A stretch of 64,000 bases of DNA from a bacterium SCSIO 12696 (GTDB lineage Bacteria; Pseudomonadota; Gammaproteobacteria; Pseudomonadales; Porticoccaceae). Position numbers and translations under genes: made by a program. This document shows positions 10,253 to 64,000 of the stretch, one piece after another. The notes under the pieces were generated by a model. That model did not search any database. It was given only the letters and a program-made list of their open reading frames with translations, and was not told the DNA's origin. How positions within the stretch are numbered: position 1 is the first letter of the stretch; the number at the start of each line of letters is the position of its first letter. The stretch covers positions 620,001 through 684,000 of the forward strand of contig CP073744.1 in assembly GCA_024397955.1 (NCBI GenBank), given 5' to 3'.

Positions 10253-11197
10253 ATGACGGAACAAAATACTGAGAAACAGGTATGCGGTATTGTTATGCCT
10301 ATATCAGCTACCGATGGCTGCGGTAAAGATCACTGGGCTGAGGTTCTTCAGATTATTTCTGATACTGTCGACTCGGCAGGGCTTGAAGCAAACCTGGTTA
10401 GCGAAGCTGATGATGTTGGCTCAATACACAAACGTATTGTCCAAAATCTATACGAGAACCCCATAGTCGTCTGTGACGTTAGTGCGAAGAACCCTAATGT
10501 AATGTTTGAGCTTGGCATGAGGCTGGCTTTCGATAAGCCTACAATCATTATTAAAGATGACAAGACTAGCTATTCCTTTGATACGTCAACTATTGAACAC
10601 CTGGAGTATCCGCGCGATCTAAGGTTTTCGACGATTGTTACTTTTAAGGAAACATTAACCAGAAAGATAAGCTCAACATTGGACAAGTTCCGTGATGATA
10701 GTGCGACGACTTTTTTGAAGCATTTTGGAGAGTTTAAGGTAGCAAAAATTAGCACTAAGGAAGTAGGAGCTGAAGAAATTATTCTGGAAGAATTAACCAA
10801 TATCAAAAAGCAATTAGGCGCTTTAAAAAGCGATATTTACCGAGGCAAGAGTAGCCCGGAGTTTAACTATATCAGCAGTTTGTCTGACTCCATCATTAGG
10901 AAAAAGGATCCAGATCAGTACCTGCTGAATCTCTCTAGGGTTTCTGTAGATGCTCGGCATCAAGTGATGGAATATGCTCTCAACGATTCTCGTGTAAAAG
11001 CTATCGCGCCATCCGAATCCGTAAAATCAGAAAATGAAATATTTGTTTTGTTTTTTAATGAAGGCACCCCTGTTCGCTCTGAAAGGCGATTTATATCAGC
11101 CCTTCGCGACAAGTATCCTGAGATTGAAATTGAACCGTTATTTAGAACAGCAAAGTCGGCCATGAAAGACGCACTACGTGAATTAGATTCTATATGA
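10253..11197 (+). CDS. Nucleoside 2-deoxyribosyltransferase/TIR-like domain protein
   Basis: About 314 residues. The N-terminal half (about 10-150) looks like the nucleoside deoxyribosyltransferase/TIR-like Rossmann fold: CGIVMPISATDGC, an Asp/Ser strand VVCDVSAKNPNVMFELG (about 72-88) and KPTIIIKDD. The NPNV-x-x-ELG helix carries the putative catalytic Glu. The C-terminal half has no recognised domain. I chose ATG 10253 because GAAAAGGAA lies at proper distance; an in-frame ATG at 10193 lacks a site. Such domains occur both in nucleotide metabolism and as NAD-directed or nucleotide-sensing modules of anti-phage systems. The location in an accessory block beside a STAND NTPase favours the second role, by inference. 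Confidence 0.6.
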   Translation: MTEQNTEKQVCGIVMPISATDGCGKDHWAEVLQIISDTVDSAGLEANLVSEADDVGSIHKRIVQNLYENPIVVCDVSAKNPNVMFELGMRLAFDKPTIIIKDDKTSYSFDTSTIEHLEYPRDLRFSTIVTFKETLTRKISSTLDKFRDDSATTFLKHFGEFKVAKISTKEVGAEEIILEELTNIKKQLGALKSDIYRGKSSPEFNYISSLSDSIIRKKDPDQYLLNLSRVSVDARHQVMEYALNDSRVKAIAPSESVKSENEIFVLFFNEGTPVRSERRFISALRDKYPEIEIEPLFRTAKSAMKDALRELDSI

Positions 11198-53322: not shown

Positions 53323-54783
53323 TTAAGCCTCTTTCGGGTACACATCCCAAGAAACGCCGGCCATTTCTTCCAGGCAACGAACCACCTGGCAGCTGTAGCC
53401 AAACTCATTGTCGTACCAGCAGTACAGCACCGCGCTGTCACCGGAGATAATGGTGGCTTTGGCATCGAAGATACAGGCGTGGCGCGAGCCAACAAAGTCG
53501 CTAGACACCACTTCCGGAGATTCGGTGAAGTCGATCTGTTGCTGCAGCGACGAGTGCAAGGCAACGCTGCGCATGTACTCGTTGAACTCTTCCTTGTTGC
53601 TGGCGCTGCCCATTTTCAGGTTGAGAATCGCCATGGACACATTGGGTGTAGGCACACGAATGGCATTACCGGTGAGCTTGCCTTCCATTTCTGGCAGCGC
53701 GCGGGATACCGCCTTGGCGGCACCGGTTTCAGTGATCACCATATTCAGCGGCGCGGAACGACCACGGCGCTCGGCGCTGTGGTAGTTATCGATCAGGTTC
53801 TGGTCGTTGGTAAAGGCGTGTACGGTTTCCACGTGGCCGTGCTCAACGCCGTATTTGTCGATCACTGCTTTCAGCACCGGGGTAATGGCGTTGGTGGTAC
53901 AGGACGCGGCGGAGATGATCTTGTCTTCCGGCAGAATGTCGGTGTGGTTGATGCCGTAAACCACATTCTTCAGATCACCCTTGCCCGGTGCGGTAAGCAG
54001 AACTTTGGCGACACCCGGGCACTCCAGGTGCTGGCTGAGGCCAGCTTCGTCACGCCATACGCCGGTGTTGTCCACCACCACGGCGTTGTTGATGCCGTAT
54101 TCGGTGTAGTCCACTTCCGACGGGTTGTTGGCGTAGATGATTTTGATGGGGTTGCCGTTACACACCAGCACGTTGTTTTCTTCGTCGATACGAATGGTGC
54201 CGTGGAAGGTGCCGTGTACCGAGTCGCGGCGCAGCAGGCTGGCGCGCTTCACCAGGTCATTCTTGGCTTTGCCCTTGCGCACCACAATGGCACGCAGGCG
54301 CATCACATCGCCACCGCCGGTCTTTTCGATCAACAGACGCGCCATCAGGCGGCCAATACGGCCAAAGCCGTACAGAACCACATCTTGAGGCTGGGGCAGT
54401 GGCTTGGAGTCACTATTGAGTGCATCCGCCAGCTCTACCCGCAAAAATTCTTCCGGAGTCTGGCCATTGGCCTGCTCCATATGCTTGGAGGCAAGCTTGC
54501 CCAAGTCCAGATGGGCGTGACCAAGGTTCAGGTCCAGCAACGCCTTGAGCATGGGGTAGGTTTCAAACTCAGAGACTTCATTATGCTCTACCTGACGCAC
54601 CCGGCGGTGGGCCTTCATAATATCGATAACCGATTGGTTAACTAATGAACGGTCGTAGAGGTAAATACCCACATTGCGCTCGCGATTGAGCTGACCAATC
54701 ATCGGGATCATGGCTTCTGCCAGGGCTTCACGCTCTTTCCAGTCAGCGAAGAAGTCGGCGGGTTGAGGTCTTGGGTCGGTCAC
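53323..54783 (-). CDS. Glyceraldehyde-3-phosphate dehydrogenase, long form
   Basis: A 486-residue NAD(P)-dependent enzyme. The N-terminal extension of about 130 residues (all-helical, MTDPRPQPADFFADWKERE) precedes the usual Rossmann start YGFGRIGR (about 138-145). The catalytic Cys lies in ISAASCTTNAI (Cys 295), with HAFTNDQN downstream. This long variant is common in gammaproteobacteria, where it lies next to nqr (for example PA3001 in Pseudomonas aeruginosa). Tandem terminators follow. Confidence 0.93.
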   Translation of the reverse strand: MTDPRPQPADFFADWKEREALAEAMIPMIGQLNRERNVGIYLYDRSLVNQSVIDIMKAHRRVRQVEHNEVSEFETYPMLKALLDLNLGHAHLDLGKLASKHMEQANGQTPEEFLRVELADALNSDSKPLPQPQDVVLYGFGRIGRLMARLLIEKTGGGDVMRLRAIVVRKGKAKNDLVKRASLLRRDSVHGTFHGTIRIDEENNVLVCNGNPIKIIYANNPSEVDYTEYGINNAVVVDNTGVWRDEAGLSQHLECPGVAKVLLTAPGKGDLKNVVYGINHTDILPEDKIISAASCTTNAITPVLKAVIDKYGVEHGHVETVHAFTNDQNLIDNYHSAERRGRSAPLNMVITETGAAKAVSRALPEMEGKLTGNAIRVPTPNVSMAILNLKMGSASNKEEFNEYMRSVALHSSLQQQIDFTESPEVVSSDFVGSRHACIFDAKATIISGDSAVLYCWYDNEFGYSCQVVRCLEEMAGVSWDVYPKEA

Positions 54784-54939: not shown

Positions 54940-56391
54940 TTACCAGCAAACACCGCTGTAATTTGCCAGCTCTGCATGGGTGTCCGGCAACCGGACCAAA
55001 TCCACCACATGGGTGTAGAGGCGAGCGATTCGGGCAATTTCCTCAGCGTAGGGGTGGTTGTGCGCAATCACCACCACATCGCTCTGGCGAATCAAGGTAA
55101 AAAAGTGGTCGCACACAGTTGTTTTCGGCGATTGCCCAAGGTCAGAGGCCACGCCAGCAGACTGTTCAAAATTCAGGTAAGGGTCATAAAACAACACCTC
55201 CCTGCCCCGCTCTTTCAGCTGTTGCATAAGCGCAATAGCCGGGCTTTCTCGCAAATCGTCAGTTCCGGGTTTAAAGCTGACACCGACAACCCCAACCGAT
55301 GCACCGGGCAAATCAGCGATCAGCTGCTCTGCATGGCGAATGTGTCGTGAATTACTGACATCGATCTGATTAATCACTGGCAAGTCCACACCAACCGACC
55401 GGGCCAGGTGCTGCATACTGCGAATTTCTTTGGGCAAACAAGAGCCGCCATAGGCGAATCCGGGCTTCAGATAATAAGGCGAAAGATTAAGCTTGGTATC
55501 TTGCAGAAAGATATCCATTACCTCATGGCTGTCCACATCCACCGCCTGACACAGGCGCCCTACTTCGTTGCCAAAGCACACTTTAAGTGCATGCCAGGTA
55601 TTGTCCACACACTTAACCAGCTCAGCCGCCTCCAGGGTTGTACGGATAGGAGCCTGATCAACAGATTGATAAAGCCGGGCCGCGTAATCTGCACTGCGCT
55701 TATCGGTAGCGCCAATCACGGTTTTTGGTGGCTTGTGAAAATCATCAATGGCGGTGCTCTCGCGCAAGAACTCCGGGTTGTAGCACACGCCAAAATCTTT
55801 GCCGCATTGTTTGCCAGAAAACTCTTCCAGCAAAGGTATCATGACTCGGCGGGTGGTTTGGGGTGGCACTGTGCTTCTGTAAACCACCAAGTGATAGCCC
55901 GTCTTTTTCTTTAAAGCCGCGCCAATTTGTCGGGTGGCCTCCTTTAAATAACTCAAGTTACAGCTGCCATCCTCATTGCTGGGCGTGCATACGCTGATAA
56001 AACTCACATCGGTACTGAGAATCGCCTGTTCGGCATCTTTGGTTGCCGCCAGCAAGTTTTTGTCATGGGCTTGGGATAACAAATCATCCAGACCATCCTC
56101 GACAATGACCGACTTGCCGATATTCATATTGGCCACTTTGGCGTCATCGAGATCAACACCCATGACCTTATGCCCCAAGTCAGAGAAACAGGCTGCTGAT
56201 ACCGCACCGACATACCCCAACCCAAAAATACTGATGGCTGGTTTTTTTAACGATTTGGCAGATGTCAGCCGAGGCCTATCCATCGTCAAAGGTGACAATG
56301 GGATATCCAAGTTTGCATCGACTACCTCTCTTTCTGCTAAAAATTCCTGTCGACCGTAAACACCTTGTTTTACGTTATTTTTGTTAATCAT
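54940..56391 (-). CDS. algD: GDP-mannose 6-dehydrogenase with N-terminal extension
   Basis: AlgD oxidises GDP-mannose to GDP-mannuronate, the committed alginate precursor. The 483-residue protein matches AlgD from residue 52 (AISIFGLGYVGAVSAAC). It has SVCTPSNEDGSCNLSYL, YRSTVPPQT, the catalytic Cys in GGSCLPKE and the C-terminal VGVSFKPGTDDLRESP. Preference for GDP-mannose over UDP-glucose is judged from these AlgD-like segments. About 50 extra N-terminal residues precede the fold; GGAGACGAAGG before ATG 56391 supports this start. A sigma-54 promoter lies 46 bp upstream. Confidence 0.92.
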   Translation of the reverse strand: MINKNNVKQGVYGRQEFLAEREVVDANLDIPLSPLTMDRPRLTSAKSLKKPAISIFGLGYVGAVSAACFSDLGHKVMGVDLDDAKVANMNIGKSVIVEDGLDDLLSQAHDKNLLAATKDAEQAILSTDVSFISVCTPSNEDGSCNLSYLKEATRQIGAALKKKTGYHLVVYRSTVPPQTTRRVMIPLLEEFSGKQCGKDFGVCYNPEFLRESTAIDDFHKPPKTVIGATDKRSADYAARLYQSVDQAPIRTTLEAAELVKCVDNTWHALKVCFGNEVGRLCQAVDVDSHEVMDIFLQDTKLNLSPYYLKPGFAYGGSCLPKEIRSMQHLARSVGVDLPVINQIDVSNSRHIRHAEQLIADLPGASVGVVGVSFKPGTDDLRESPAIALMQQLKERGREVLFYDPYLNFEQSAGVASDLGQSPKTTVCDHFFTLIRQSDVVVIAHNHPYAEEIARIARLYTHVVDLVRLPDTHAELANYSGVCW

Positions 56392-56436
56392 GGCCTTCGT
56401 CTCCGTTGCAATTATTTAATAACCTGAAACGACTAC

Positions 56437-56452
56437 TGCAGAGAGCGTGCCA
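56437..56452 (-). promoter_or_regulatory. Sigma-54 promoter of algD
   Basis: On the minus strand TGGCACGCTCTCTGCA fits the -24/-12 consensus TGGCACR-N4-TTGCW at all fixed positions but one, with the essential GG and GC correctly spaced. Transcription would start near 56426, giving a leader of about 35 nt before the algD ATG. Confidence 0.75.
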
Positions 56453-56587
56453 ACTTAAAAAACCCTTATAAATAAGGCTTTTTATCGATTTATTTCCGAT
56501 TTTTTTAAATTTTTTTTCACTTGGCATTGCAAGTTGCTTTGCATTTTGCAAAACGATCATAACAACACGTGAATTCCAACCAGAAGC

Positions 56588-56613
56588 CATGCAATTTCGC
56601 AAGAATTTGCATG
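56588..56613. promoter_or_regulatory. Palindrome beside the transporter promoter
   Basis: CATGCAA (56588-56594) and TTGCATG (56607-56613) are perfect inverted repeats spaced by 12 bp, overlapping the first bases of the plus-strand -24 element. It could be an operator or activator site shared by the divergent promoters; this is inference. Confidence 0.35.
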
Positions 56614-56627
56614 GCACAAAGCTTGCT
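56612..56627 (+). promoter_or_regulatory. Sigma-54 promoter of the type I secretion genes
   Basis: TGGCACAAAGCTTGCT matches TGGCACR-N4-TTGCW at every fixed position. Transcription would begin near 56638, 26 bp before the ATG of the ATPase gene. Confidence 0.8.
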
Positions 56628-56663
56628 CAAGGAATAAAGAGAAATAAGAAATAGGGAAGTCTT

Positions 56664-58340
56664 ATGAAATACAGCAAACTGACATGGCACTCATTGCCCT
56701 ACCTTTCATTTATTTGCGTGGCCAGCTTAATTACCAATATCTGCGCCATGGCTTTGCCTATATATACGTTGCAAATCTTCGACAGAGTCATTACCAGCGG
56801 CAGTGTAGAAACCTTGAGCATGCTATCCATTGCCCTGGCCATCATAAGTTGCGCTTATCTCAGTTTTGAAGCACTGAGACGGAAGATGCAAGAGCTCTCC
56901 GGTGAACGAACTGTTACTGTGCTGACAGAAAGGCTATCCGAGAGTTCATCACTATTCTTTTCAAAAAAAAATCAGGAAAACAGCCCTTACGAGCTGATTG
57001 AAAAAGCAAAGTCTTTTGTAGTGAGCCCTAACCTATTGGCGGCCATGGATGCACTCTGGTCACCCATCTACATTATTTTCCTGTTTATCTTGCATCCCTA
57101 TTTTGGGCTTCTGGCATTGGCCATCAATGGACTACAACTGACTACCTTATTGCTGCAAATACGCCATCTTGGTCGCAACAGCCGACATCTGAAAAAGCAT
57201 CAAAACCAGCTGCAAAAAATCAACAAAGAGTCCATCAATTGCCAGCAAAGACTGAACACCATGGGCATACAAAAAACCTGGCTGGCTCGCATCAAAAGCA
57301 TGACATCCGTACAACATCGCATGGAAAAAAAACTGGCCAGAAACCAACAGAGATACACGGTTTCCGGTATTACACTCAGGCTCTTATTACAAGCCTCATT
57401 GCCCGCCACCGGTGCCCTGCTTTTAATCAGCCAAACCATTACACCAGGTGTCATGCTGGCTGCTCTCATTATTGGGTTTCGCTGCCTGACCCCATTCGAC
57501 ACCTTATTGAAGAACTGGAAATCTCTTGAAGAAAGCCTAGCTGCTCAGTCAGAAATAAACCGCTTACTCAGAGTGGAAAGCCCAGTCAAAAATACTCCAC
57601 CGCTGCCCTTTGGGGGTTGCTTAACCGTAAAAGAATGGTCGTTGCAAGAAGGCCTGCAAACCGTCAATTTTGCACTCAAGCCTGGGGAATCACTAGCGGT
57701 TATCGGGCCCAACGGGGCAGGTAAAACTCAGCTCCTGCAAACCTTGTTAGCGCAGAAAAAGTTGGGACAGAAAAAATACACGGGCAAAGTGCTTTTTGAT
57801 CAAATGGAGGTTGCCACTATTGATGACGCTTGGCTTGGTAAACAAATAGGTTATGTGCCTCAAGAAAACCACTTTCCCAACGCCAGCTTCGCGGAACACA
57901 TTTGTCGTTACCAACCTGTTGAGGCGTCCACCTGCCAAGAACAACAAATGGTCGCACTCGCCAAAAAGGTGGCCATTCACGATTGGGTTATGTCGCTGCC
58001 GAAAAGATACGACACCTGTGTAGGTGGAGAGTCACCTCTACCACCAGGCCTGGGCCAACGCCTGGCAGTGGCCCAAGCACTGTTCGGAGAACCGCAACTT
58101 TTGCTGTTCGATGAAGCCGATTCCGCATTGGATATTGAAGGGCTACAAGCCTACCAAAGCGTCCTTAAAGAACAGAAAAAATCCGGCAAAACCACTGTAT
58201 TTGTTACCCAGCGCCGACAGTTAATTCACGAAGCAGACTTCGTGCTGGTACTGAATAACGGCGGTGCGGTTTTTTACGGCCCGGTTGCTTCCTTCTTTTC
58301 TTCTCATAACAGCTCTGCACACAGCCCGCAAAAAGCGTAA
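56664..58340 (+). CDS. Type I secretion ABC transporter (PrtD type), atypical motifs
   Basis: A 558-residue half-transporter with five or six membrane helices (about 12-290) and a C-terminal ATPase. It has no N-terminal peptidase or CLD domain, as in the PrtD/AprD branch. Walker A is GPNGAGKTQ (348-356) and Walker B LLLFDEAD with the catalytic Glu. The usual LSGGQ signature is replaced by LPPGLGQR (about 459-466), and the switch His by Gln in VTQRRQL. Activity may therefore be altered. The adaptor gene follows after 10 bp. The likely substrate is the RTX protein encoded nearby. Confidence 0.88.
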   Translation: MKYSKLTWHSLPYLSFICVASLITNICAMALPIYTLQIFDRVITSGSVETLSMLSIALAIISCAYLSFEALRRKMQELSGERTVTVLTERLSESSSLFFSKKNQENSPYELIEKAKSFVVSPNLLAAMDALWSPIYIIFLFILHPYFGLLALAINGLQLTTLLLQIRHLGRNSRHLKKHQNQLQKINKESINCQQRLNTMGIQKTWLARIKSMTSVQHRMEKKLARNQQRYTVSGITLRLLLQASLPATGALLLISQTITPGVMLAALIIGFRCLTPFDTLLKNWKSLEESLAAQSEINRLLRVESPVKNTPPLPFGGCLTVKEWSLQEGLQTVNFALKPGESLAVIGPNGAGKTQLLQTLLAQKKLGQKKYTGKVLFDQMEVATIDDAWLGKQIGYVPQENHFPNASFAEHICRYQPVEASTCQEQQMVALAKKVAIHDWVMSLPKRYDTCVGGESPLPPGLGQRLAVAQALFGEPQLLLFDEADSALDIEGLQAYQSVLKEQKKSGKTTVFVTQRRQLIHEADFVLVLNNGGAVFYGPVASFFSSHNSSAHSPQKA

Positions 58341-58350
58341 GGATACTCCT

Positions 58351-59649
58351 ATGACCATTCAAGGCCCCACAAAAAGCATTCAGCAAAAAGCACAGAGAAT
58401 CTGGGTTTCAGCAGCATTGACGCTGACACTAAGCCTGTCGGCTCTGTGTCTGTGGGCGACGTTTGCGCCGCTGCAAAGCGCAGCTACCGCCACTGGTTTT
58501 GTGCGCGTAGAAGGCAAAAAGCGCATCGTGCAGCACTATGACGGCGGTATTGTTGATCAGTTATTGGCCCTCGAGGGGGAATACGTGGCGCAAGGTACGC
58601 CGATCATGCAGTTACAAACCGTTGAGCTGGACCGCAAAATTCAAAGCCTGCTCAAAAAATACCTGAATTTGTCCGCCATGCAGGTTCGGCTCTCTGCTCA
58701 GATAAAGGGAAGCCAATCCATTGAGTTTCCCAAAGACGTAACCGCCCTTGCTGAAAGCATCAACTATCTGGGCGCGCTGAATGTTCACCAACAAATATTA
58801 CGAGAGGAAAAAAAGTCACTGAAACAGAAGCTGTCTGTACTGGACAGTCAACTATCTCAACTGGAAACTGACATTGCCGGTCAGGAATCCACTCTAAAAT
58901 CTTTGAAGTACCAACTCAGTCTGATTGAAAAACGGCAGTCCGCCATGAAGAATCTGGCGGAAAAAGATTTGGTCTCTAAAAAACAACTTGCTGATATTCA
59001 GCTTTCGGTGTCGTCCCTGTCGGAAAACATCAACCAAGCCAAAACTGCTTACAAAAGAGGCATTGAAAAACGCCGAGAGTTAAGTTTTTCCCGTCATCAA
59101 CTGGAAACCCAGGACAAAGCCGATGCGCTCAACAAGCTGCAAAAAATTCAGACTGAACTCCCCCTGTTGAAAGAAGAAATCAAACTATTGAAACTCAAAC
59201 GAGCCCGCGCACAAGTATTGGCCCCTATCTCTGGCCGGATCACCAACCTTCAAGTCAACACCATTGGCGCCACGGTGCATCCAGGAGGGAAATTATTGGA
59301 GATTGTTCCCCAGAGTGAGCGCTTGGTGGTAGAGGCACGTTTAAAGCCAGAGGACGTCGACAATATATCCAACGGTTCTGCGGCAAAGATACGCCTGACT
59401 GCTTACAACACCCGACGCACATTGCCTATAGAGGCTACCGTTCACAGGCTGTCTCCAGATCGTTTAACCGACGAATACGGGCAGGCCTACTACGAAGTGA
59501 TTCTCTACCTGAATAACCTGCAACAGAACCAACCGCTTTACCCAGGCATGCCTGCAGAAGTGATTATTCATACGGGAAAACGTCACTTGATGGACTACTT
59601 GGTGGGGTCTTTGTTATCGGGCGCAGAAAAGGCGCTTTTGGAAAAATAG
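58351..59649 (+). CDS. Type I secretion membrane fusion protein (HlyD/PrtE type)
   Basis: A periplasmic adaptor of about 432 residues. It has one N-terminal membrane helix (about 20-45), the lipoyl-like half GFVRVEGKKRIVQHYDGGIVDQL and a long coiled coil (about 95-280). The returning lipoyl half follows (VLAPISGRITNLQVNTIG), then a beta-barrel ending GMPAEVIIHTGKR. It connects the ABC transporter to an outer-membrane TolC-type channel, which is not encoded here. I chose ATG 58351, which follows AAGGA; the frame is open further upstream into the ATPase gene. Confidence 0.92.
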   Translation: MTIQGPTKSIQQKAQRIWVSAALTLTLSLSALCLWATFAPLQSAATATGFVRVEGKKRIVQHYDGGIVDQLLALEGEYVAQGTPIMQLQTVELDRKIQSLLKKYLNLSAMQVRLSAQIKGSQSIEFPKDVTALAESINYLGALNVHQQILREEKKSLKQKLSVLDSQLSQLETDIAGQESTLKSLKYQLSLIEKRQSAMKNLAEKDLVSKKQLADIQLSVSSLSENINQAKTAYKRGIEKRRELSFSRHQLETQDKADALNKLQKIQTELPLLKEEIKLLKLKRARAQVLAPISGRITNLQVNTIGATVHPGGKLLEIVPQSERLVVEARLKPEDVDNISNGSAAKIRLTAYNTRRTLPIEATVHRLSPDRLTDEYGQAYYEVILYLNNLQQNQPLYPGMPAEVIIHTGKRHLMDYLVGSLLSGAEKALLEK

Positions 59650-60482: not shown

Positions 60483-62429
60483 TTAAACAACAAACGAAAA
60501 ATCACTGAGAGAGGCGTCCGTAACTCCCTCCAAAGTGACGAAATCAACACTGCTGTACTGATCACCACTGCCATCCAAATCTACGGAGAGAACAGTATCG
60601 CCACCGGACTCCGACAGGCTCAACCACTCACCAATAGTTTCCAGGGTCAGTGCCGGTGACAAGTCCAGTTCGATAATGTCTTCACCCAGTGAAAAATCCA
60701 CAATCAGGTCAAGAGAATCATTAATATCACTACTGCGCCAGTAAAAGGTATCACTACCCTCACCACCAATCAGCGTATCATCACCACCTAAACCGCGGAT
60801 AAAATCATCTCCGGCGCCGCCATCGAGGCGGTTGTCCCGTTTATCACCACGAAACCAGTCATTGAAATCAGAGCCAATGGCGTTTTCGATGGACAACAAG
60901 GTATCGGAATCCCCCCCGGTGGTGCGCTTTCCGTGAATATCAATACGAATACCACTGGCCAATGCTGAATAATCTGCGGTATCAATGCCACTGCCACCGT
61001 TCAGCTGGTCTTTGCCAGAACCGGATACAAACACATCATTGCCGGAACCGCCCAGCAAGGTGTCTTTGCCATCGCCACCCACTAGGGTGTCGTTACCAGT
61101 GCCGCCGTCCAAATAATCGTGTCCGCGGCCACCTGACAGAGCGTCATCACCGGAACTGCCGTAAAGGTGATCGTTGCCATAGCTACCGTCCAGGGTATCT
61201 TCGCCGGTGCCGCCTTGCAGTTCATCGTTGCCGGAGCCGCCAAACAAGGCATCATCGCCGGAGTTGCCATACAACACATCATTACCGGAGCCGCCGTTCA
61301 ATGTATCTTGTCCGGTGCCGCCGCTGAGTTCGTCGTGGCCGTTGTCACCGTACAAGGTGTCGTTGCCACCACCGCCCTTCAGCAAATCATTGCCAGAGCC
61401 ACCGTAGCCCACATCATCACCAGAGCCGGCGTAAATTTCATCATGGCCGTTATTGCCGTAATGTGTGTCGTTACCGGCGCGGCCGTACAGCTGATCGTTG
61501 CCATTGCCGCCGTGCAAAGTATCGTTGTCCGAGTGCACCACAGCAGCAACGCCGTCACCAGTACCATCAACGATCCCATCATCGACACCGCCGCTACTGT
61601 GACTGACATTCGGGTCGAGCACCCGGGCATTGGCAGAGCCGAGATCAACGGTAAACACGGAATCGTCAAAGTCTTTATCACCGCCGTTGTAGAGGTCTTC
61701 AAACCCCAGGGTCAGCTCGCCCCGGTCGCTGTTAAGCAAACCGACTGTGTGGGGAATACCGTCTGGGTTGAGGCTGTAATCACTGCCATCAACCCCCGCT
61801 GCGGTGTGGTATTTGTGGATCATCAATTGCCGTTCCGAGCCATCATCCCCCACAAACCACAGTGAAGGATTACTGTCGTAAATAGTGGCAGAGTCGCCAC
61901 TGGCGTTGCGAAACACCAGCGTGCCAGCATTAAAATCAATGCCGTTGTAGCCCTGGTTGAAACCGTAACCGTTGGCGACAATAAAAAAGCCAAGCTGGTC
62001 ACCGGCTTGCAGTGACAGAGCACTTTCGCTCTGCCCACGGATTAAATCGCCGCCAGAGCCTTGCAAACTGGCGTTGGGAAAATGCATGGTGACATCGCTG
62101 ATCAGCCCGTTGGCATCCACCTTGTAACTGCCCAGGCTGTTGCGATAACCGGCGGTTTCATTTTCAAAAATCACCTTGCCCTGGTAATCCTCAGTGATGG
62201 TCAGGTGGGGCAAACTGATGTAGCTGGGGCCGCCGCCACCGTAAATCACATCGTTGCCGCTGTTGCCGTGCAACTGGTCATCACCGGTGCCGCCCCAAAC
62301 CTGGTCGTGGCCGTTGCGTGCTTCGATCAGGTCATCGCCACCGCGCCCGGAAAACACTTCGTGCCCGGCACCGCCTTGCAGGTGGTCATCACCGCTGCTG
62401 CCGATTATGGGTTTAATTGCTATTGCCAT
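60483..62429 (-). CDS. Secreted RTX calcium-binding protein with DUF4114-like domain
   Basis: A 648-residue acidic, Gly/Asp-rich protein. RTX nonapeptide repeats (GGxGxDxLxG) occupy about 10-67, 302-475 and 515-565. A DUF4114-like domain (about 110-262) contains FEDLYNGGDKDFDDSVFTV. The C-terminus (SLSDFSFVV) has the Asp-plus-hydrophobic ending seen in PrtD-type type I substrates. I chose ATG 62429, preceded by GGAG; an upstream start would overlap alg8. No beta-helix or lyase/epimerase motif is seen, so it is not an AlgE-type epimerase. It lies 14 bp downstream of alg8 and is probably co-transcribed. Confidence 0.88.
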   Translation of the reverse strand: MAIAIKPIIGSSGDDHLQGGAGHEVFSGRGGDDLIEARNGHDQVWGGTGDDQLHGNSGNDVIYGGGGPSYISLPHLTITEDYQGKVIFENETAGYRNSLGSYKVDANGLISDVTMHFPNASLQGSGGDLIRGQSESALSLQAGDQLGFFIVANGYGFNQGYNGIDFNAGTLVFRNASGDSATIYDSNPSLWFVGDDGSERQLMIHKYHTAAGVDGSDYSLNPDGIPHTVGLLNSDRGELTLGFEDLYNGGDKDFDDSVFTVDLGSANARVLDPNVSHSSGGVDDGIVDGTGDGVAAVVHSDNDTLHGGNGNDQLYGRAGNDTHYGNNGHDEIYAGSGDDVGYGGSGNDLLKGGGGNDTLYGDNGHDELSGGTGQDTLNGGSGNDVLYGNSGDDALFGGSGNDELQGGTGEDTLDGSYGNDHLYGSSGDDALSGGRGHDYLDGGTGNDTLVGGDGKDTLLGGSGNDVFVSGSGKDQLNGGSGIDTADYSALASGIRIDIHGKRTTGGDSDTLLSIENAIGSDFNDWFRGDKRDNRLDGGAGDDFIRGLGGDDTLIGGEGSDTFYWRSSDINDSLDLIVDFSLGEDIIELDLSPALTLETIGEWLSLSESGGDTVLSVDLDGSGDQYSSVDFVTLEGVTDASLSDFSFVV

Positions 62430-62443
62430 GGTTATTCTCCTTT

Positions 62444-64000
62444 TTAGTATTGGGAAATATTTATCAACGCCAGCAACCCCTGCGCACTGGGCAGATCCGC
62501 TAGCGAGGTGTAGAAAAGCACAGCCAAAACCAACGTGGTGAGCCAAACGGTGGTCACGTAAGACGCGATCCAGTTGTTTAATTTGTCGGCAAAACTTTCC
62601 CCCAATCCAGCGGATTGATTGCCCCGGTTGGTCCAGCGTTGTTTGGCCAGGCGCGCCAGGCAGTACACTTTTACCGACGCGTTGAGCAGCTGGTTAAAAT
62701 AGAGAATAAAGGGCCATTCCACGTGCACGGTTTTGCTGTATCGATACAAAAACAAAGACAGCGCCATGCGGGAAAAAGCGATCCAGATCAGGTAAGCCAG
62801 AAAATAAAAAGGGTCTCGCAGTAAAGTGGCCAGCAGCGCCACAATGGGGCTGACCAGCATGGTCCACATAGCGATGCGTTGGTCCAGTACACACCACCAA
62901 ATAAACCCACCCACCTTGCGTGGGCCCAGCTTCAAAGCCCGGGTGCCATTGCGCAGCATATTGCCGGACCAGCGCCGAAAGTTTTGGGTCATGCGCTCAA
63001 TGCCAGAACCGTCCACCTCTTCCACCGTGTACACCAATGCATCCGGTACATAGAGCATTTTCGCGTCTTGGGTGAGCATGTAGTACCAGGTGCTTTTGTC
63101 GTCGCCGGACAAAAATCGAAACTTGCCCCACAGCCAGTGTTCCAGATGGTCCGCCTCCAACATGCGAATAAATTTGTAACGGGTGAGGTGGTTGGCCCGA
63201 AATACCGACATGCGTCCGGTCAGTGTTAATACCTTGTTGGACATTGCGTGGGATTGCATGGCAATGCGCCGCTGAGAAAAACGCATGGTGAGCCAGGATT
63301 TGACCCAACCAGGGCCAAAACAGATCACTTCTTCATCGGTGGTTACCGCTTGCAGTTCCGGGTCGGCTTCAAACAATGGGCAACATTTGCGCAGGATATC
63401 CGGTGCCAGAATGGCGTCACCGTCCATAAACACAATCAGGTCGTCCCGGTGAATGCGGCGCCGGGACATGGCGCGCAGTACCAGGCCAATGGCCATGCGT
63501 TTACCAGACACATTCTGGCGAATAATCACCAGCTCCAACGGCAAGTCCGCCCCGTGCTGGCGCAGGTAATTCATGATGATATTTTCGTCGTAGGGGTCTC
63601 CAGAGCCCAGCCACAGTGTGGTGGGCACACCGGCGTTGCGCACTTCGTTACAAATACTTTGCACCACCAGCTCTGTGGTGTCGCGGCGCTCTTTAAAGGT
63701 GGTCATCATGAAATGCAGGTGATGGGGCCGCCAACCATCGGTCCAGACCGCGTCTGCTGTTTTTCGTATTTGCGGGAAACGACGATGCTGGTAATACTCG
63801 GAGCGCACCACGTGCACAAACCACCAGCAATAACGCCAAATACCCAGCGCCCCAAGCGTGATGGTGATTTTTTTCAGGTCACCGTCCCAAATGGTATTGG
63901 GTGCGTGCATTACCAGGATAAACGCAATCAGGAAGTAGCCGGAGATATGCAGCACCGTTATCAGTGGCCATTTTTTCGGCGTATCGGTGCAGTGCTGGCC
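62444..64000 (-). CDS. alg8: Mannuronan synthase Alg8 (partial, runs off right edge)
   Basis: Alg8 is a GT2 membrane synthase that polymerises GDP-mannuronate. The frame is open to the window edge, past a GTG at 63955, so the first residues are outside. It contains N-terminal helices (about 1-45), FMDGDAILAP (DxD), TTDEEVICF, LSGDDKSTWY and the processivity motif QNFRRWSGNMLRN. Several C-terminal helices follow. Identification as Alg8 rests on these motifs and on the nearby algD. The alg44/algK/algE genes are not in the window. Confidence 0.88.
   Translation of the reverse strand, partial: GQHCTDTPKKWPLITVLHISGYFLIAFILVMHAPNTIWDGDLKKITITLGALGIWRYCWWFVHVVRSEYYQHRRFPQIRKTADAVWTDGWRPHHLHFMMTTFKERRDTTELVVQSICNEVRNAGVPTTLWLGSGDPYDENIIMNYLRQHGADLPLELVIIRQNVSGKRMAIGLVLRAMSRRRIHRDDLIVFMDGDAILAPDILRKCCPLFEADPELQAVTTDEEVICFGPGWVKSWLTMRFSQRRIAMQSHAMSNKVLTLTGRMSVFRANHLTRYKFIRMLEADHLEHWLWGKFRFLSGDDKSTWYYMLTQDAKMLYVPDALVYTVEEVDGSGIERMTQNFRRWSGNMLRNGTRALKLGPRKVGGFIWWCVLDQRIAMWTMLVSPIVALLATLLRDPFYFLAYLIWIAFSRMALSLFLYRYSKTVHVEWPFILYFNQLLNASVKVYCLARLAKQRWTNRGNQSAGLGESFADKLNNWIASYVTTVWLTTLVLAVLFYTSLADLPSAQGLLALINISQY

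Follow-up and report, generated by a model that had tools for sequence, protein, structure and literature searches.

Divergent sigma-54-like promoter pairs and a shared LuxO-type element point to a probable alginate regulon linked to an H-NOX module

What switches on algD in this bacterium, and is the secretion operon that faces it under the same control? In the window, the 64-kb stretch of DNA analyzed here, algD (54940..56391, minus strand) and a gene for a PrtD-like type I secretion ABC transporter (56664..58340, plus strand) diverge from a spacer of 272 bp (56392-56663). The algD product carries the N-terminal, central, and C-terminal UDPG_MGDP_dh domains of Pfam, and its closest solved structure is the GDP-mannose 6-dehydrogenase 1mfz (E 2.5e-113, residues 53-483); its N-terminus is extended by about 50 residues. 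The transporter contains ABC_tran and has type_I_sec_PrtD as its best NCBIfam model, at 324.6 bits and thus below the cut-off of 510.15. It is followed by an HlyD-family type I secretion adaptor (58264..59649, plus strand), which scores 301 bits against a cut-off of 208.65 for TIGR01843 (type_I_hlyD). Directly to the left of algD lie a long-form glyceraldehyde-3-phosphate dehydrogenase gene of the PRK08289 type (53323-54783) and then nqrA and nqrB. Several database relatives of the algD product (P0209, P0210, P0230, and others) have an added receiver domain, PF00072.

An initial annotation of this DNA had placed two divergent sigma-54-like sites in the spacer, close to the start codons, and both are there. 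The site toward algD, TTGGCACGCTCTCTGCA (56437..56453, minus strand), has one mismatch to TGGCAC-N5-TTGC; the site for the ABC/HlyD operon, ATGGCACAAAGCTTGCT (56611..56627, plus strand), contains the core TGGCACAAAGCTTGCT at 56612-56627 with none. Placed from the GC of each -12 element, the predicted starts fall at about 56426 and 56638, giving predicted leaders of about 35 bases to the algD ATG (56391, minus strand) and about 26 bases to the ABC ATG (56664, plus strand), as the annotation had them.

We scored sites with an approximate sigma-54 position matrix of our own, on which all matrix scores below rest. By this approximate matrix the algD site (18.2) and the ABC site (16.4) rank first and second among the 37 sites scoring at least 9 in the window, and the next-ranked intergenic site reaches 10.5. 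A skeptic could hold that such sites are chance look-alikes and that algD is under AlgU or a sigma-70 promoter as in Pseudomonas. Sigma-54 cores with two mismatches are indeed common (81 found in the window against 92.6 expected), so only near-perfect matches carry signal. Near-perfect matches behave differently. When the spacer was shuffled 3,000 times with dinucleotides preserved, the plus-strand score was reached once and the minus-strand score three times, and in no shuffle did both strands reach even the lower of the two scores. Across the genome, TGGCACN6TGCW has 27 matches, compared to 5 for the reversed control; at this density of about 1 per 108 kb, a divergent pair of this type about 160 bp apart is not expected, in agreement with the annotation's view that a back-to-back pair is unlikely by chance. 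A crude ORF caller places eight of the 27 between genes, and two of these precede genes that, from their translations, we take to be glnA and fliD. Both genes are known sigma-54 targets elsewhere. The genome has one rpoN match (E 2.2e-68). AlgU-type sequences, which the annotation had proposed looking for, are found in the spacer with two mismatches at best, and the scan of the spacer returned no sigma-70-like site; AlgU and sigma-70 control were rejected accordingly. Chance was rejected on the shuffles, the genome-wide counts, and a two-copy element described below, and it also sits poorly with conservation across orders; altogether we find this reading hardly credible. That both sites are real sigma-54 promoters is well supported, as far as sequence can support it.

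One further site in the genome (91848-91863, L050), TGGCACAAAGCTTGC, is the same as the ABC site over 15 bases and lies about 31 bases ahead of an ORF that looks to us like a diguanylate cyclase. No enhancer common to this site and the alginate spacers was found.

The pair does not stand alone. About 9 kb to its right, in the segment L013 (genome 680001-700000; window position equals L013 position plus 60000), a second divergent pair of sigma-54-like sites lies between alg44- and algI-like genes. The site toward alg44, TTGGTACAAAGGTTGCA (L013 5508-5524, minus strand), and that toward algI, CTGGCCCAGTGATTGCA (L013 5831-5847, plus strand), are the two best sites of L013; their boxes, TGGTAC and TGGCCC, make them weaker than the algD/ABC sites. 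The starts used here, alg44 ATG at L013 5475 and algI ATG at L013 5900, are our choice, the ORF tool starting both further out, inside the spacer. A comparable pair arose in none of 3,000 shuffles of this spacer. In 120 kb of the bacterium's own sequence, five sites score at least 14.6 by the approximate matrix: four make up the two divergent pairs and the fifth lies in an ORF at 10512. In the algD/ABC spacer, the stretch 56515-56537, with TTTCACTTGGCA, matches the alg44 promoter region with 2 mismatches in 16 bases; its GG-GC spacing is one base too long, and it is perhaps a relic promoter.

The genes on either side of the second pair, with alg8, alg44, and algI assigned by domain make-up, account for much of an alginate cluster. 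Reading leftward are alg44-like, alg8-like, and RTX genes. The alg8-like product is a family-2 glycosyltransferase (Glyco_tranf_2_3; L013:2444-4078, minus strand, that is, from 62444 to the end of the window at 64000 and 78 bases beyond), and the last gene of the row (60483..62546, minus strand) encodes an RTX-repeat protein with 12 HemolysinCabind stretches and DUF4114, likely the cargo of the ABC-HlyD type I system. Reading rightward are an MBOAT (AlgI-like) gene, an AlgX/J-type gene, AlgF, a second AlgX/J-type gene, and a gene for a 434-residue protein (L013:10393-11697, plus strand). This last has no Pfam match and 22 database hits; it is predicted to fold as an outer-membrane-type barrel, its fold matches are not specific to AlgE, and it could possibly be the alginate exporter. 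GMD, alg8, alg44, algI, AlgF, and AlgX/J are thus present, and algG, algK, and algL are not among the 10 cluster proteins examined in L013. A search of PDB sequences with the Alg44-like protein gave no match. One relative of a cluster protein comes from Maricurvus (Cellvibrionaceae). Beyond the alginate genes, before the activator gene discussed below, lies a Tle1-like gene (L013:12301-13335) of the type VI effector phospholipase family.

If the two pairs belong together, one would look for a shared regulatory site, and there is a candidate. The 2.93-Mb genome holds two exact copies of the 14-bp sequence TTGCATTTTGCAAA and no more, one at 56539..56552 (plus strand) in the algD/ABC spacer and one at genome 685676-685689 in the alg44/algI spacer, against 0.02 copies expected from uniform bases and 0.21 from a first-order Markov model of the 120 kb. 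One further copy with one mismatch lies inside an ORF, and the reversed-pattern control gave none. The two spacers have GTTGC[T/G]TTGCATTTTGCAAA in common, on opposite strands. The 13-bp core fits, without mismatch in either spacer, the upstream activating sequence (UAS) of LuxO, TTGCAWWWTGCAA, as given in PMC10162802. Measured start to start, the element lies 72-168 bp from the sigma-54-like sites and overlaps none of them; this is a usual place for an enhancer, and we treat it as a candidate enhancer. Each spacer holds one perfect copy, and additional copies carry 2 or 3 mismatches: a possible, weak, degenerate second copy, TTGCAAGTTGCT (56527..56538, plus strand; 3 mismatches in the 13-bp window from 56527), lies 12 bp from the perfect one, and degenerate copies lie 21 bp off in the alg44/algI spacer (2 mismatches) and likewise 21 bp off in a more distant genome considered below (G542; 3 mismatches). 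One exact copy (L165) is marked inside an 86-residue ORF that spans the alg44/algI spacer; we take this ORF to be spurious. The annotation had proposed that an enhancer-binding activator switches on alginate precursor synthesis and export together. An element common to both spacers fits such joint switching, and the proposal appears supported.

Which activator would use the element? The annotation suggested looking for an NtrC-family gene near the locus, and one lies about 17 kb off, where this alginate cluster ends (genome 693408-694868, L013 13408-14868, minus strand). Its product, referred to here as HnoC-like, has a receiver domain, an AAA+ domain with GAFTGA, and a Fis-type helix-turn-helix, the make-up of NtrC-family bacterial enhancer-binding proteins. 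Its best NCBIfam model is LuxO (NF041946), with 370.6 bits where the cut-off is 800; it appears LuxO-like while falling short of the LuxO equivalog. Alanine scanning defined 11 LuxO residues critical for DNA binding (PMC11407668), and the protein keeps 10 of them. Among the matches listed, 119 other homologues keep 8 to 10, and the homologues listed come from Thalassomonas, Colwellia, and other marine genera, with Psychromonas and Cellvibrionaceae also represented.

One can envision instead that a general activator of the NtrC or FleQ/FleR type opens these promoters, placing alginate under nitrogen or motility control; a search of the genome with Sigma54_activat found eight strong matches, and in A. 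vinelandii FleQ binds algD DNA, there as a repressor (PMC12022260). The shared element is of LuxO type, however, and six other GAFTGA-bearing activators of the genome have only 1 to 5 of the 11 contact residues, counts that may be too low because a simple scaffold rule served to locate the helix-turn-helix; in the eighth (L008) no GAFTGA frame was found, and the comparison covers the other seven. The other activators were rejected on these residues, and we consider general control of this kind very unlikely. The LuxO-like protein could also act the other way, repressing these sigma-54 promoters while another activator opens them, since HnoC is described in Shewanella as keeping the hno regulon repressed until phosphorylation lifts the repression (PMC8738867). 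Against this, GAFTGA is kept here, and GAFTGA or GSFTGA is found in all 120 homologues listed of the 332 found, our own included; the element overlaps no sigma-54 site at its distance of 72-168 bp; and in the Sigma54_activat search every other match lay more than 90 kb from algD. Repression seems unlikely, and we prefer a LuxO-like activator as the partner of the element.

The genes adjoining that of the activator suggest what it might respond to. They encode an H-NOX protein, a histidine kinase, and an HD-GYP regulator that passes the NCBIfam NosR model (NF053512, 424.1 against a cut-off of 400) and in which RN replaces HD. The closest solved relative of the H-NOX protein is 4u99, titled an NO-binding heme-dependent sensor, and the haem histidine and the YxSxR motif are kept in it and in its counterparts in the two other genomes with this module (G406 and G542). 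We read the four genes as a probable nitric oxide module. The same module could be wired as drawn and answer redox or oxygen rather than nitric oxide, given that the H-NOX of V. cholerae can be a haem-free redox sensor (PMC7108781) and that our H-NOX keeps C-terminal cysteines aligned with those of the solved relative. The H-NOX of G406 is without these cysteines, however, and the conserved histidine and YxSxR, the NO-binding title of 4u99, and the NosR-level score of the neighboring regulator all favor NO. A redox or oxygen signal is on balance improbable, yet enough of a prospect to be kept in mind beside the nitric oxide input that we favor.

Is the arrangement peculiar to one genome? G406, from another order of the same class, has the gene order H-NOX, kinase, HD-GYP, activator, RTX-DUF4114, alg8, alg44, divergent pair, algD. 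Identities are 57-58% for the activator, 58% for the RTX-DUF4114 protein, which occupies the same place as its partner here, 70% for alg8, 51% over 259 residues for alg44, and 55% for algD. Its alg44/algD spacer holds a divergent sigma-54-like pair with an exact TTGCATTTTGCAAA in between, and the scores on both strands were reached in none of 3,000 shuffles. After algD come a manC/algA-type and a phosphomannomutase-type gene. Conservation there extends to only some of the regulon, since tblastn (E 1e-4) over 60 kb found no relative of our ABC, HlyD, algI, algX/J, algF, or 434-residue genes. In both algD proteins (54940-56391 and L160:9722-11157), the N-terminal extension begins M-x-NKN.

Elsewhere the arrangement is rare. 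Of 56 algD-like loci, many of them distant dehydrogenases, 52 had a usable ORF and were scanned upstream, and a divergent pair with the element occurs only in our genome and G406; among the other 50, five have one sigma-54-like site scoring at least 11 and none has the element. In a set of 33 chosen genomes, the same two alone have an activator match above 44% identity, and a strict activator cut-off was passed by 1 of 63 genomes of G406's order and by 3 of 369 in a sample of the class. In two genus mates no match exceeds 26% identity for ABC or 38% for algD, and four distant ABC matches came from a scan of genome contigs with the ABC protein. Five contigs besides our own genome appear to carry homologues of both activator and algD, compared to 0.045 expected from a shift control on contigs above 10 kb; this comes from indirect list matching among the 120 matches listed of 332 and of 1,842, and is only suggestive.

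G542, a third genome with the activator (50%), also has H-NOX, kinase, and HD-GYP genes. Its single exact element is intergenic, 4.5 kb from the activator, and a weak sigma-54-like site, TTGGAAAGGTTTTTGCA, follows after 96 bp. Together (L198:13898-14255) they lie ahead of a gene whose product starts MSYSYHRERS, near a DUF1194 gene; this gene may be a non-alginate target of the same activator. No relative of our alginate genes was found in 40 kb by tblastn (E 1e-4), so the link between activator and alginate is not exclusive.

Allowing one mismatch, the element occurs at 24 places over eight genomes, 5 of them exact. Four of the exact copies are in the activator-bearing genomes, with a sigma-54-like site scoring at least 12 within 300 bp; the fifth is in G001, which has no close activator, and no sigma-54-like site is near it. 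Of the 19 places with one mismatch, 18 could be placed, all within ORFs, and one of these has a sigma-54-like site nearby. True and reversed-control counts at up to one mismatch were 3 and 0 in our genome, 1 and 0 in G001, 2 and 1 in G002, 5 and 2 in G037, 6 and 1 in G027, 2 and 0 in G031, 2 and 0 in G406, and 3 and 6 in G542, so that in G542 the element is supported by its place and not by its number.

How does this compare with known systems? In Vibrio fischeri, HnoX and HahK feed a LuxO-related sigma-54 activator, SypG, much as we propose here; SypG turns on the syp biofilm polysaccharide locus through enhancers, and NO inhibits (PMC12369376, PMC10162802). That route passes through SypF and LuxU to syp genes, whereas our activator gene sits beside the H-NOX, kinase, and alginate genes themselves. 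The Shewanella oneidensis system (HnoX, HnoK, and HnoB/C/D), compared by description and not by sequence, likewise has an H-NOX protein, a kinase, a transcription-factor regulator, and a degenerate HD-GYP protein (PMC6335343, PMC8738867). It differs in that HnoC represses the hno regulon itself, and in the accessible text no polysaccharide operon was found described as a target. The LuxO-Qrr pathway of Vibrio resembles ours in activator family, in the enhancer, and in the DNA-contact residues, and NO enters it via H-NOX, HqsK, and LuxU, with NO inhibiting the kinase through H-NOX (PMC6759604). Its targets are Qrr RNAs and ours are protein operons, and the score of 370.6 against 800 sets our activator apart.

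With Pseudomonas and Azotobacter alginate regulation (AlgU, AlgB, AlgR, and FleQ) the locus shares algD and the alg8, alg44, algI, algF, and algX/J-type genes, and there too an NtrC-family regulator, AlgB, takes part. Their algD promoters depend on AlgU, or on AlgU and RpoS (PMC12022260), whereas here sigma-54-like sites precede four operons and the activator is linked to H-NOX. Control of exopolysaccharides by sigma-54, taken as a class, is already a theme of the literature (PMC3162934). In the open literature searched, outside which most subscription papers lie, the text available describes no H-NOX module controlling alginate genes; the nearest case is AmrZ, an alginate regulator linked in P. 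aeruginosa to the dispersion response, for which NO is named as one of the cues (PMC9769550).

We think it probable that the sigma-54 sites are the promoters of one alginate regulon of four operons, with a LuxO-like activator and H-NOX/kinase input. This circuit is wider than the one first annotated, adding a second divergent pair, an enhancer-like element, and an activator inside an H-NOX module. We imagine that the kinase encoded beside the activator phosphorylates it, and that the neighboring H-NOX haem protein, responding to nitric oxide, controls this kinase. The phosphorylated activator would bind TTGCATTTTGCAAA in the algD/ABC and alg44/algI spacers and contact sigma-54 polymerase to either side, opening algD; ABC-HlyD; alg44-alg8-RTX; and algI with its AlgX/J- and AlgF-type genes and the predicted outer-membrane barrel. 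The expected effect of NO would be to shut the regulon down, NO-bound H-NOX silencing the kinase, because in Vibrio NO inhibits the kinase or biofilm formation via H-NOX. The activator could work in a different mode, given the repressor role described for HnoC in Shewanella. For the promoters and the activator the sequence evidence is good; that the activator binds, that it activates and does not repress, that phosphotransfer takes place, that NO is the signal, and which sign its effect has are what we infer from this evidence and from precedent. With somewhat less assurance, and at slightly better than even chances, we suggest that a self-contained NO-to-alginate circuit is encoded in the alginate cluster. 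Acting through a LuxO-type enhancer, it would govern a single sigma-54 regulon that covers synthesis, acetylation, type I secretion, and an RTX matrix protein, and different orders of Gammaproteobacteria, probably marine ones, would have it in common.

What is known of alginate control comes largely from Pseudomonas and Azotobacter, with AlgU central; here the chain appears to be a haem NO sensor, a kinase, an enhancer-binding activator, and sigma-54. If so, this would be a short circuit from NO to matrix with its parts in one 23-kb stretch, and the effect of NO on biofilms would be directly testable at one promoter pair. The LuxO-type enhancer code would reach beyond Vibrio quorum sensing. 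That algD is paired with a type I exporter and alg8 with an RTX protein also suggests coordinated production of polymer and matrix protein.
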